A program made the translations under genes and the position numbers. The notes under the pieces are model-generated. The model had not been told where the DNA came from and made no database searches. It saw only the letters and a program-made list of their open reading frames with translations. Shown piece by piece: positions 13,930-25,374 of a stretch of DNA of 60,602 nucleotides (positions are counted from its first letter, which is position 1; every line of letters begins with the position of its first letter). Source of the stretch: Clostridia bacterium (GTDB lineage: Bacteria; Bacillota; Clostridia; Christensenellales; Aristaeellaceae); NCBI GenBank assembly GCA_017427165.1, contig JAFRTK010000085.1, positions 1 to 60,602 on the forward strand. Reading direction: 5' to 3'.

Positions 13930-13970
13930 GGATAACCATAAAGGGCATTTTGCCGGAAAGGAAGGATCGC

Positions 13971-14642
13971 GTGGACTGGTCGTTTATCGGCGTGCATGTG
14001 CCGGACTACATCGGCGGCGCCTGGGTCACCCTGCGGTTCGGCCTTTACGGGGTGGCCTGCTCGATGGTGCTGGGGCTGCTGTGCTGCCTGGCGCAGTATT
14101 TCCGCGTTCCGGTCCTGCGGCGGATTGTGGGCGCGTATATCGAAGTCGCCCGGAACACGCCGCTGCTGGTGCAGCTGTTCTTCCTGTACCAGGGACTTCC
14201 GCGGGTCGGCATCCGGTTCAGCGCACAGGCCTGCGCGGTGATCGGCCTGACGTTCCTGGGCGGCGCCTATATGGCGGAAGCATTCCGCAGCGGCCTGGAG
14301 GCGGTGGACCGCTCCCAGACGGAAGCCGGACAGTGTATCGGCCTGACAGCGGCCCAGAATATCCGATTTGTGATTCTCCCGCAGGCACTGGCCACCGCCG
14401 TGCCCGCGCTGTTTGCCAATATCATTTTCCTGATCAAGGAAACCAGCATGTTCTCGGTACTTGCCATGATGGACCTGATGAATGTGGCGGATACCCTGCG
14501 GACCAGCGGCGGACGCACGATTGAGGTGCTGTTCATGCTGGTGGCCGCCTACCTGGTGCTCCTGCTCCCGGTTTCCCTGATCGCGACACTGGCTGAAAGG
14601 AGGCTGCGCTATGCAGGATTCGGGGATCGCCATCCTGTTTAA
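13971..14642 (+). CDS. Polar amino acid ABC importer permease 1
   Basis: 223 aa, HisM/GlnP type with about five membrane segments. The cytoplasmic EAA loop is A-F-R-S-G-L-E-A-V ... Q-T-E-A-G. Start: GTG at 13971 is preceded by GGAAGGA six bases upstream; an in-frame TTG at 13950 lacks a site. It overlaps the second permease by 32 bases. Together with permease 2, the ATPase and the binding protein at 16448 it forms a complete importer. Confidence 0.88.
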   Translation: MDWSFIGVHVPDYIGGAWVTLRFGLYGVACSMVLGLLCCLAQYFRVPVLRRIVGAYIEVARNTPLLVQLFFLYQGLPRVGIRFSAQACAVIGLTFLGGAYMAEAFRSGLEAVDRSQTEAGQCIGLTAAQNIRFVILPQALATAVPALFANIIFLIKETSMFSVLAMMDLMNVADTLRTSGGRTIEVLFMLVAAYLVLLLPVSLIATLAERRLRYAGFGDRHPV

Positions 14643-15282
14643 GGGAATCAACTTCCAGCGCCTCCTCGGCGGGCTGTGGGTCACGCTGCGGATTGCGCTG
14701 ATCAGCATCGGCCTTTCCTGCGTGCTGGGCCTGCTGTTCGGCCTGCTGATGCTTTCCCGCCGGAAGATCGCGCAGGTCTTCTGCCGCGTATGGCTGGAGA
14801 TTGTCCGGTTCATGCCGCAGCTGGTGCTGCTGTATATCGTGTATTTCGGGTTTGCCCGGATGTTCGGCTGGGACCTGGACGGGGAAACCAGCGGAATCCT
14901 GGTATTCACCTTCTGGGGAGCGGCGGAGATGGGCGACCTGATCCGCGGCGCACTGACCTCCATCCCGCTGCACCAGACGGAATCCGCCGCCGCGATCGGC
15001 CTGACCCAGTGGCAGATCTACCGGCATGTGCTGATTCCGCAGATGCTTCGCCGCCTGCTTCCGCAGGCGATCAACCTGTCGACCCGCATCATCAAGACGA
15101 CCGCGCTGGTGAAGATGATCAACGTAATTGAGGTCCTGAAGGTGGGGCAGCAGATTATCGGACAGTTTTACCGGTCGCCGGATGCGGCGTTCTGGATCTA
15201 TTTTGTGATTTTCCTGCTGTATTTCCTGGTGTGCTGGCCCATCTCCATGCTGGCCAAACGGCTGGAAAAGAAATGGGCGTGA
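14611..15282 (+). CDS. Polar amino acid ABC importer permease 2
   Basis: 223 aa, the same HisMQ-type permease family as its upstream neighbour. It has an EAA loop L-I-R-G-A-L-T-S-I ... Q-T-E-S-A-A and about five membrane segments. The ATG lies inside the end of the preceding gene behind AAAGGAGG. The two different permeases probably form a heterodimer. Confidence 0.88.
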   Translation: MQDSGIAILFKGINFQRLLGGLWVTLRIALISIGLSCVLGLLFGLLMLSRRKIAQVFCRVWLEIVRFMPQLVLLYIVYFGFARMFGWDLDGETSGILVFTFWGAAEMGDLIRGALTSIPLHQTESAAAIGLTQWQIYRHVLIPQMLRRLLPQAINLSTRIIKTTALVKMINVIEVLKVGQQIIGQFYRSPDAAFWIYFVIFLLYFLVCWPISMLAKRLEKKWA

Positions 15283-15300: not shown

Positions 15301-16083
15301 ATGAGTGAACCGATTCTGCGGGTGAAGGACGTCCATAAATCATTTGACGAAACCGGCGTGCTGCACGGGGTCTCCCTGGACATCCGGGAAGGCGAGGTTG
15401 TGGTGATCGTCGGCCCGAGCGGCTGCGGAAAGAGCACGCTGCTGCGGTGTATCAACGGACTGGAGACCATTGACCGCGGGGAAATCTTCCTGCGGGGAGA
15501 GAAAATCTCCGGCCGGACAAAGGACCTGCACCTGGTCCGCCAGAAGATCGGCATGGTGTTCCAGAGCTATGACCTGTTCCCCCATATGAAGGTGATGGAC
15601 AACCTGCTGCTGGGCCCGGTCCGGGCGTTGGGAAGGCCGCGGGAAGAGGCGGAAAAGGAAGCGATGGAAATGCTCGCGCGCGTCGGCCTCCGGGAGAAGG
15701 CGGACGTCTATCCGCGTACCCTGTCCGGCGGGCAGAAGCAGCGCGTGGCGCTGGTGCGCGCCATGATGATGCATCCGGAAATCCTGCTGCTGGATGAGAT
15801 TACCGCCGCGCTGGACCCGGAAATGGTCAGCGAGGTGCTGAATGTGGTGATTGACCTGGCCCGGGGCGGCATGACCATGGCGATTGTGACGCATGAGATG
15901 CGGTTCGCCGAGGCCGTGGCGGACGAAGTGCTGTTTCTGGAGGACGGGGTCGTCGTAGAACAGGGACCTCCCGAAAAGTTCTTCCATGCGCCGGAGACGG
16001 AGCGCGCGCAGCAGTTCCTGAAGAGCTTTACCTATTCGTTCAAAAAGTCCGAAGTACAGCCAAAAAACAATCCGGAGGATTGA
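15301..16083 (+). CDS. Polar amino acid ABC importer ATPase (GlnQ/TcyC type)
   Basis: 260 aa. Walker A G-P-S-G-C-G-K-S-T near residue 38, Q-loop FQSYDLFPHM, signature L-S-G-G-Q-K-Q near 140, Walker B I-L-L-L-D-E near 160, H-loop V-T-H-E-M. The C-terminal extension of about 20 residues is Lys/Asn-rich. It energises the two permeases encoded immediately upstream. Its TGA stop is embedded in the -35 hexamer of the next promoter. Confidence 0.92.
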   Translation: MSEPILRVKDVHKSFDETGVLHGVSLDIREGEVVVIVGPSGCGKSTLLRCINGLETIDRGEIFLRGEKISGRTKDLHLVRQKIGMVFQSYDLFPHMKVMDNLLLGPVRALGRPREEAEKEAMEMLARVGLREKADVYPRTLSGGQKQRVALVRAMMMHPEILLLDEITAALDPEMVSEVLNVVIDLARGGMTMAIVTHEMRFAEAVADEVLFLEDGVVVEQGPPEKFFHAPETERAQQFLKSFTYSFKKSEVQPKNNPED

Positions 16084-16108
16084 CAAGGCAGTCTGCCGGC
16101 ATTACAAT
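16080..16108 (+). promoter_or_regulatory. Separate promoter for the Cys-leader and binding protein gene
   Basis: TTGACA (16080-16085), exactly 17 bases, TACAAT (16103-16108). RNA would begin near 16115, leaving a leader of about 330 bases before the binding protein. Confidence 0.85.
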
Positions 16109-16162
16109 CCACTTAACCTATCGGAGTGATAGGCGAAAAAACGGAAAGGAGACGGAACCGAA

Positions 16163-16231
16163 ATGAAGATGTGTATGTGTTCCTGTATGATGTGCTGTTC
16201 CATGAGTCCGTCTCATCCGGAGCGCGGCTGA
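16163..16231 (+). CDS. Cysteine/methionine-rich leader peptide (22 aa)
   Basis: ATG at 16163 with GGAG 11 bases upstream, 22 codons, TGA at 16229-16231. The first 14 residues are MKMCMCSCMMCCSM: five Cys codons (TGT/TGC) and six Met, then a plain tail ending E-R-G. It sits 55 bases after a strong promoter and 28 bases before an intrinsic terminator, upstream of a binding protein resembling cysteine-binding CjaA. This is the expected form of a ribosome-stalling leader peptide sensing charged tRNA-Cys (and perhaps tRNA-Met). Too short for ordinary gene finders. A metal-sensing role for the Cys cluster is a less likely alternative. Confidence 0.75.
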   Translation: MKMCMCSCMMCCSMSPSHPERG

Positions 16232-16258
16232 CGCGTGCAGAAGCAGACGCTTTTCCGG

Positions 16259-16290
16259 GAGCCGGACATGACCGTTCCGGCTCTTTTTCT
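16259..16290 (+). terminator. Intrinsic terminator of the Cys attenuator
   Basis: Stem GAGCCGGA/TCCGGCTC of 8 base pairs (16259-16266, 16276-16283), nine-base loop, five T residues. Confidence 0.8.
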
Positions 16291-16447
16291 GTGCCGGAGG
16301 CAAGGAAACCAACGGAAAGGATGACGCGGATGACACACACCAGAACGGCGAGGGACCGATGTTCCGCCGCCTGAGAATGAAAAGGTAAAAACCAAAGTGG
16401 AGAAATAAAGAATCAACAAACGGAAAACGAAAGGAAGGTAAACCGAT

Positions 16448-17275
16448 ATGAAACTGCTGAACAAAGTATTTGCCCTGACCCTGGCCCTGGTCCTGCTGCT
16501 GGCTGCTACTGCCGCTTCTGCGGAAGGTTTCCGCACCCTGGATGAAATCAAGCAGAGCGGAAAAATTACCATCGGCCTCTTCTCCGATAAGAAACCCTTC
16601 GGCTATGTGGACGAGAACGGCGAATACCAGGGATATGACGTCTACCTGGCCCGCCGGCTGGCCGCCGACCTGGGCGTGGAACTCGATATCGTGTCCCTGG
16701 ATGCCCCGAACCGCATTGAGTATCTGCAGTCCTTCAAGGTGGACCTGGTACTTGCCAACTTCACCTACACCGCGGAACGCGCGGAACAGGTCGATTTTGC
16801 CCTGCCCTACATGAAGGTTGCCCTGGGCATCGTCAGCCCGGACAGCGCCCTGATCACCGAAGCGGAACAGCTGAACGGACAGCACCTGATCGTTTCCAAG
16901 GGCACGACCGCGGAGACCTATTTCACCAACAACTACCCCGAAGTGATCCTCGACCGGTATGACAGCTACACCGAAGCGTACCTGGCCCTGCTGGACGGCC
17001 GCGGAGCCGCTCTGTCCACGGACAATACCGAAGTGCTGGCCTGGGCGATTGAGAATCCCGGATTCACCGTGGGCGTTGAGTCCCTGGGCGACCTGGACAC
17101 GATCAACCCCGCCGTTTCGAAGGGCAATGAAACCCTGCTGAACTGGATCAATGAAGAGATCAAGGCGCTGGGAGAGGAAAACTTCTTCCATGCGGACTAT
17201 GAAGCGACCCTGCGGGAAACCTACGGCGAGAACGCGGACGCGGACAGCCTCGTGGTGGAAGGCGGCGTCATCTGA
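16448..17275 (+). CDS. Cysteine-type amino acid ABC importer substrate-binding protein
   Basis: 275 aa with a cleavable signal peptide (A-S-A-E-G). Mature N-terminus FRTLDEIKQSGKITIG, then FSDKKPFGYVDENGEYQGYD, V-D-L-V-L-A-N-F-T-Y-T and FALPYMKVALGIVSP: the PBP family 3 fold and the specific pattern I associate with cysteine-binding CjaA-type proteins. Extracellular (Gram-positive, no lipobox seen, so retention at the membrane is unclear). It works with the permease pair and ATPase upstream but has its own promoter and the Cys-rich attenuator, allowing separate control. The first ATG with AAGGAAGG upstream is used. Specificity for cysteine or cystine is inferred from family and leader. Confidence 0.85.
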   Translation: MKLLNKVFALTLALVLLLAATAASAEGFRTLDEIKQSGKITIGLFSDKKPFGYVDENGEYQGYDVYLARRLAADLGVELDIVSLDAPNRIEYLQSFKVDLVLANFTYTAERAEQVDFALPYMKVALGIVSPDSALITEAEQLNGQHLIVSKGTTAETYFTNNYPEVILDRYDSYTEAYLALLDGRGAALSTDNTEVLAWAIENPGFTVGVESLGDLDTINPAVSKGNETLLNWINEEIKALGEENFFHADYEATLRETYGENADADSLVVEGGVI

Positions 17276-25304: not shown

Positions 25305-25345
25305 GCATGAATTTTGAAGCGTGGAAGAGGCCGTTTAATTACCCA

Positions 25346-25374
25346 TTGACATAGTAGGCAAAAGGGAATATAAT
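25346..25374 (+). promoter_or_regulatory. Perfect-consensus promoter for nifS-nifU
   Basis: TTGACA (25346-25351), 17 bases, TATAAT (25369-25374). Confidence 0.88.

Follow-up and report, generated by a model that had tools for sequence, protein, structure and literature searches.

Ribosome-mediated attenuators of the trp, his and leu type are known from the enterobacteria, T-boxes bind tRNA directly and need no translation, and the polycysteine open reading frames (ORFs) of mycobacteria are reportedly leaderless, to go by the title of a 2020 study by Canestrari. Excerpts of the literature describe a predicted His leader in Bacillus (PMC2965389); the uORFC-8-2 motif before cysS in Rhodobacterales, for which ribosome-mediated attenuation at Cys codons with an intrinsic terminator was predicted (PMC8632094); leader peptides with Cys runs before cys and cbs genes of Actinobacteria, where the excerpt places the Cys near the stop codon and reports that no conserved terminator hairpin was found (PMC1262725); and cysteine-specific T-boxes in Clostridium perfringens, ahead of genes that include those for cysteine uptake (PMC2940859). 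For Clostridia, the excerpted part of the last account names T-boxes and S-boxes as the RNA elements known to regulate genes for cysteine and related sulfur compounds, and our searches of an open-access library turned up no Cys-codon attenuation for cysteine in this class. Here, we analyzed a 60,602-nucleotide (nt) stretch of DNA from a Clostridia bacterium (contig JAFRTK010000085.1; hereafter the window), in which a short, Cys- and Met-rich leader ORF precedes the gene for a family-3 solute-binding protein (SBP). In this rumen-type gut bacterium and its relatives, the pausing of a ribosome on the Cys-packed leader appears to turn on a gene for cysteine uptake. Ribosome-mediated attenuation is a classic form of control; its Cys-codon form for cysteine uptake in Clostridia is predicted here.

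A Cys- and Met-rich leader with four RNA segments

The leader probably works as a four-segment, ribosome-mediated transcription attenuator that, through its Cys codons (probably Cys and Met codons together), regulates the gene for the SBP of an ATP-binding cassette (ABC) importer of the cysteine type. An original prediction, made from the letters of the window, had placed a promoter, the leader ORF, a pairing between two RNA segments and an intrinsic terminator upstream of that gene, and each is present there, base for base (Table 1). The first 14 residues of the ORF hold five Cys and six Met, with the Cys at positions 4-12, and 0/3000 dinucleotide shuffles of 16084-16447 gave an ORF this Cys-rich (ATG start, 8-40 codons in length, five Cys among the first 15 residues). 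The promoter matches the consensus at 11/12 positions and has a 17-nt spacer. Segment 1 (GAGACGGA), which is the Shine-Dalgarno (SD) region of the leader, is perfectly complementary to TCCGTCTC (16207-16214) within segment 2. The further suggestion that segment 2 can pair instead with the left arm of the terminator also held, as GUCCGuCUC (16206-16214) and GAGcCGGAC (16259-16267) pair at 8/9 positions in the predicted fold.

In the mechanism that we infer, an untranslated leader would pair its SD region (segment 1) with segment 2, segment 3 would stay free, and the terminator (segments 3 and 4) would form. With charged tRNA-Cys scarce, a ribosome stalled at Cys 4, 6 or 8 (16172-16186) would cover segment 1, and the segment 2 freed by the stall would capture segment 3, such that polymerase would read through into the SBP gene. 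With ample cysteine, a ribosome that has reached the stop codon (16229-16231) would occupy the inner hairpin and the lower left arm of the antiterminator, and transcription would be expected to terminate in vivo. A ribosome stalled at Cys 11 or 12 would extend into segment 2, and no antitermination is expected from such a stall. These placements use customary ribosome footprint sizes.

Conservation of the leader codons

Relatives of the SBP came from the genus, in which 31 of 45 genomes had a match at E 1e-30, and from named contigs, with the best 80 of 534 used; the top of these 80 consisted mostly of rumen and gut Clostridia metagenome-assembled genomes, and the others included Lachnospiraceae and Treponema. 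A scan for a Cys-rich mini-ORF with an SD was passed by 45/111 loci, four of which (L028, L084, L092 and L095) were dropped by hand as false. A leader was called in 41/111 loci (two of them the window itself), each with an SBP of at least 70% identity, and the 70 loci without a called leader comprised 7 at or above 80% SBP identity, 26 at 70-80% and 37 below 70%. Setting aside four identical ORFs and merging L001 and L002 into one row for the window left 36 distinct leaders, 23 in subclade 1 (that of the window) and 13 in subclade 2. For the swap tests described below, 12 further distinct leaders were added, giving 48; these 48 distinct leaders and the 48 genomes of the family introduced later are different, overlapping sets.

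The leaders are rich in Cys and Met in frame. Start codon, SD and frame were kept in the 48 distinct leaders, although the Cys cluster ends anywhere from 8 to 17 codons after the start. Among the residues before segment 2 in the 36 leaders, Cys accounted for 121/405 and Met for 92/405, each leader holding 2-5 Cys there, and MCCMC-like blocks recurred. The other two frames of the same stretch gave 71/369 and 5/369 Cys; because the 71 arise from ATGTGT repeats, a repeat at the RNA level could conceivably be involved. Cys was encoded by both TGT (82) and TGC (39). Since Met codons are nearly as common as Cys codons, the signal may be the sulfur amino acids and not cysteine alone, and the predicted attenuation for cysteine, supported as to the Cys-rich leader and its conserved pairings, has to be qualified to that extent. 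The abundance of Met beside Cys and the recurring blocks would also suit an attenuator in which Met supply, the supply of both sulfur amino acids or arrest of the nascent peptide (through redox or metal) determines the stall in place of tRNA-Cys charging, an alternative we regard as unlikely given that Cys precedes segment 2 in 36/36 leaders (partly by selection), that both Cys codons are in use, and that the SBP is nearest to proteins we take to be cysteine receptors.

Conservation of the predicted switching structures

Single-sequence folding of the leader went modestly beyond shuffles, so that the weight rests on conservation in relatives; whole-leader folding is uninformative because competing structures mix. 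The terminator, with z = -2.49, was more unusual than the other leader folds; a consensus scanner missed it on the + strand because its loop exceeds the length allowed by the scanner. Across 23 leaders, 92.4% of cells in the terminator columns were paired, and their covariation score was reached by 0/500 shuffles. The columns of the pairing between segments 1 and 2 (1:2) in 23 leaders were paired in 89.7% of cells, with a covariation score reached by 1/500 shuffles, and four of their pairs changed on both sides, which was reached by 2/500 shuffles. Within subclade 2 the register of 1:2 shifts between members (by eye), and so no single column structure was counted there and swap tests were used instead.

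In the swap tests, segments paired with their own partners beyond what swapped partners allowed. For the 48 distinct leaders, cognate 1:2 averaged -19.75 against -17.07 kcal/mol when swapped, and cognate pairing of segments 2 and 3 (2:3) -29.49 against -26.56 kcal/mol, each difference being reached by 0/5000 permutations; with swaps kept within subclades, 1:2 was reached by 0/5000 and 2:3 by 3/5000 (17/5000 for 2:3 in the set of 36 leaders), counts that are not probabilities because the sequences are related. Segment 2 formed at least 10 pairs with the left arm of the terminator in 35/36 leaders versus 55% of draws with segment 2 shuffled. The leader stop codon lay in the loop of a hairpin within the predicted antiterminator in 25/36 leaders (22/23 in subclade 1) versus a baseline of 22%, the mean share of positions that fall in such loops.

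Synonymous recoding of the 3' part of the ORF weakened 1:2 in 18/36 and 2:3 in 13/36 leaders (p<0.05), and the 1:2 pairing of the window was reached by 0/400 recoded draws. This constraint from RNA pairing on the 3' half of the ORF argues against its being an independent gene for a small Cys-rich protein (metal or redox binding); although the promoter, SD and terminator of its own and the many Cys would fit such a gene, the variable position at which the Cys cluster ends and the presence of the same SBP downstream in 47/48 genomes make it a very improbable one.

Distribution of the leader and points against the attenuator

A sequence-only model built from the 36 leaders and run with strict filters (model R1) gave strong matches (E <1e-12) in 11/45 genomes of the genus, one per genome and each at the SBP; weaker matches in these genomes (E 5e-4 to 0.05) were left out of the count. 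At E 1e-5, the model found one leader per genome in 48/308 genomes of the family, belonging to 9/50 genera, and a Cys-rich ORF was present at 48/48 of the places inspected. Linkage to one gene was nearly fixed: the SBP lay 95-381 nt downstream of the match in 47/48 genomes, and one genome (G213) had the leader with no SBP found at E 1e-75. In the order, 5/396 genomes matched, all five within the family; no Cys leader outside the family was found among these 396 genomes with a strict sequence model, which would miss convergent leaders. The leader was present in 47 of the 56 genomes whose SBP is at least 71% identical. One family member that carries it, G020 (2 contigs), has a 99% identical SBP.

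Several results weigh against the attenuator or against parts of it. Single-sequence z values were weak, at -1.34 for the antiterminator, -1.72 for 1:2 and -1.26 for 16115-16300, the last being a fold suggested by the original prediction that came out modestly better than shuffles. The Cys content of the 36 leaders is partly there by construction, since the initial scan required Cys and an SD; this selection did not extend to Met, the promoter, the terminator or the pairings. The stop codon was in the hairpin loop in just 3/13 subclade-2 leaders, U-tracts are poor in several terminators of subclade 2 (the one of L062 was set by hand), and terminator pairs changed on both sides were reached by 279/500 shuffles. 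The 2:3 columns of subclade 1 were paired in 79.2% of cells, with a covariation score that 11/500 shuffles reached; 127/500 shuffles had as many pairs with both sides changed, and one slid register scored higher. In the 36 leaders, 2:3 of subclade 1 with partners from subclade 2 equaled the cognate pairing (-28.1 vs -27.6), and the 2:3 pairing of the window itself was not weakened by synonymous recoding (p=0.14). Under strict filters, which can miss weak copies, 9 of the 56 genomes with a 71% or closer SBP gave no leader match, and neither did the 20 genomes with an SBP of 60-65%. The comparison with homologues that the original prediction had proposed was largely positive: it was so for the Cys codons, the terminator, the covariation of 1:2 and of the terminator stem (3:4) and the swaps, with no clear signal in the 2:3 columns at the shuffle counts just given.

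Genes around the leader

The closest solved relatives of the SBP were 1xt8 (1.5e-78) and 2yjp (1.1e-75), which we take to be L-cysteine receptors, namely Campylobacter CjaA and Neisseria Ngo2014; their names in the PDB are generic. The SBP reached no NCBIfam cut-off, and six peptides compared with NCBIfam gave no match. From these relatives of the SBP, the importer is predicted to be of the cysteine type. The order of ATPase, leader and SBP was kept in 34/36 leader loci. The end of an ATPase gene a short way ahead of the leader in those loci might suggest a terminator that simply closes the upstream permease-ATPase operon, with the ORF as noise, yet this is hardly credible: a promoter with at least 10/12 consensus matches stands between ATPase and leader in 36/36 (versus 0/311 control windows), the ORF and its pairings are conserved, and L036 and L040 keep the leader with no ATPase match in the 727 and 833 nt examined upstream.

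Table 1. Positions in the window of the predicted attenuator and of the features around it.
Feature	Position	Strand	Remarks
Leader ORF MKMCMCSCMMCCSMSPSHPERG	16163-16231	+	ATG to TGA, 22 codons
Five-Cys-codon stretch	16172-16198	+	proposed stall sites; codons start at 16172, 16178, 16184, 16193, 16196
Segment 1 GAGACGGA	16149-16156	+	leader SD region
Segment 2 GUCCGUCUC	16206-16214	+	partner of segment 1 or segment 3
Segment 3	16259-16267	+	left arm common to antiterminator and terminator
Hairpin GCGCG-GCUGA-CGCGU	16222-16236	+	leader stop codon in loop; within predicted antiterminator
Intrinsic terminator	16259-16288	+	stem GAGCCGGA 16259-16266 / TCCGGCTC 16276-16283; U5 16284-16288
Sigma-70-type promoter TTGACA-17-TACAAT	16080-16108	+	-35 TTGACA 16080-16085; -10 TACAAT 16103-16108
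SBP gene (family 3, CjaA-like)	16448-17275	+	gene predicted to be controlled
Second mini-ORF (uORF2) MTHTRTARDRCSAA	16330-16374	+	between terminator and SBP
Inverted repeat CCTATC-N5-GATAGG	16117-16133		about +1; putative operator (Rrf2 type suggested)
Second inverted-repeat copy	25340-25358 (pattern match 25342-25358)		overlaps -35 box of nifS-nifU promoter (nifS, cysteine desulfurase)
Two polar-amino-acid-type ABC permeases	13950-14642, 14611-15282	+	upstream of leader
ABC ATPase	15301-16083	+	upstream of leader

A second mini-ORF before the SBP gene

Between the terminator and the SBP gene lies a second mini-ORF (uORF2), 21 copies of which share M-x(5-7)-A-[RKT]-D-R-C with the Arg encoded by CGA in all; the search pattern required Ala, Asp, Cys and an Arg with any CGN codon, and starts (a few of them GTG) were chosen by SD. 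Those of the 26 pattern matches that lay away from an SBP were discarded, being in longer or unrelated frames. A sequence model of uORF2 matched in 25/308 genomes of the family, always 63-144 nt before the SBP; 23 of these also have the Cys leader and two do not. The model had no match in 23 genomes with an SBP of 71-74%. RNAalifold gave no common structure for the uORF2 region, and uORF2 therefore looks like a peptide- or codon-level element, possibly an arrest peptide or a second cysteine-dependent step. A second group of SBPs at 60-65% identity (for example, L017 and L019-L031; the same genus and some others) matched neither mini-ORF model.

An inverted repeat at the predicted start of the leader transcript

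The inverted repeat at about +1 has similar copies in many of the 36 leaders and is poor in others, mostly of subclade 2. The pattern CCYAYY-N5-RRTRGG, which was drawn from the leader, has 2 matches in the window versus 0.22 expected, and 1/100 shuffles had two; the other match is the copy at the nifS-nifU promoter. A stricter pattern, WACCYAYY-N5-RRTRGG, has 3 matches in the genome (80% complete) and its reversed control pattern 1; the third strict match, on C27, is followed after 423 nt by an ORF that by eye resembles a membrane transporter and has no clear sulfur link. At two leaderless SBP loci, L010 and L046 (identical in the stretch seen), an Rrf2 regulator gene is located directly before the SBP and, by eye, the repeat (as CCTATTGACTTGGTAGG) covers the -35 box of the promoter of the SBP gene, such that a regulator stands beside its putative target instead of an attenuator. 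The genome of the window encodes an Rrf2 protein 67% identical to the one at these loci, among three above the Pfam cut-off. CymR, an Rrf2 family member, is described in an excerpted account as a repressor of cysteine genes in other Firmicutes (PMC3828012). The repeat and its genome context hint at a candidate Rrf2-type (CymR/IscR-like) repressor layer above the attenuator.

We tentatively entertain, without favoring it, a layered switch for sulfur amino acids in this one clostridial family, in which an Rrf2-type site at +1 shared with nifS-nifU, then the Cys/Met attenuator and then uORF2 (possibly by arrest) would tune the same gene. In such a switch the SD of the leader would act as an anti-antiterminator, the stop codon would lie in the antiterminator loop in one subclade, and uORF2 would carry the motif A-[RKT]-D-R(CGA)-C. 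If true, this would be a trp-like repressor-plus-attenuator design evolved for cysteine uptake in Firmicutes. Together, the conserved uORF2 and the operator-like repeat shared with nifS-nifU offer a testable map of how these rumen and gut bacteria may keep cysteine in balance.

T-boxes and other riboregulators

The original prediction had remarked that cysteine genes of Firmicutes are generally controlled by T-boxes, which gives part of the picture: in the excerpted account, S-boxes, CymR and CysR also act (PMC2940859). No Rfam family, the T-box (RF00230) included, was matched at gathering score in the window, and nothing was matched at gathering score in 20 of the 111 loci, picked among those lacking a leader. 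The genome of the window has ten T-box places (L112-L121), two of them over the cut-off and none at the leader. By eye, the ORFs that follow them included a symporter, an aminotransferase, an asparagine synthase, an anthranilate synthase and others, with no obvious cysteine gene among the ten in this genome of about 80% completeness (two were unresolved and one ORF was doubtful). Mutually exclusive structures with a terminator are also what an undescribed metabolite riboswitch or T-box-like element would have, but with none of these T-box places and no Rfam family at the leader, and with conserved positions that are those of the SD, the codons and the switching arms, such an element is most improbable here.

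Comparison with known systems

If the ribosome-mediated attenuator proposed here is real, this form of control also arose in Clostridia for cysteine, with dozens of natural variants; the transporter would be marked as cysteine responsive, and the leader would be a compact natural sensor of tRNA-Cys charging. Like the trp, his and leu attenuators, it has a leader ORF with regulatory codons, segments 1-4 and an antiterminator that competes with an intrinsic terminator, and these elements of the trp type were found: an SD-bearing ORF after a promoter, codons matching the presumed Cys specificity of the SBP, a terminator and exclusive pairings in relatives. It is unlike them in its Cys and Met codons, in preceding a transport gene, in using the SD region of the leader as segment 1, and in having its stop codon downstream of segment 2, within the antiterminator loop in subclade 1.

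Comparison with the described cysteine systems is limited to the excerpts cited above. The uORFC-8-2 motif shares the predicted attenuation at Cys codons with an intrinsic terminator, but belongs to Alphaproteobacteria, precedes cysS and has a tandem pair of Cys codons, as a rule at positions 14-15; the leader in the window, with an SBP downstream and Cys at 4-12, is set apart from it by gene, organism and codon positions. The actinobacterial and mycobacterial Cys leaders are likewise short upstream ORFs with several Cys codons before cysteine genes, whereas here the Cys codons come first and are accompanied by an SD, an antiterminator and an intrinsic terminator. With the T-boxes of C. perfringens, the proposed mechanism would share the relief of premature termination by low cysteine; unlike at those genes, there is no T-box at this leader, and the switch predicted here would be operated by a ribosome.

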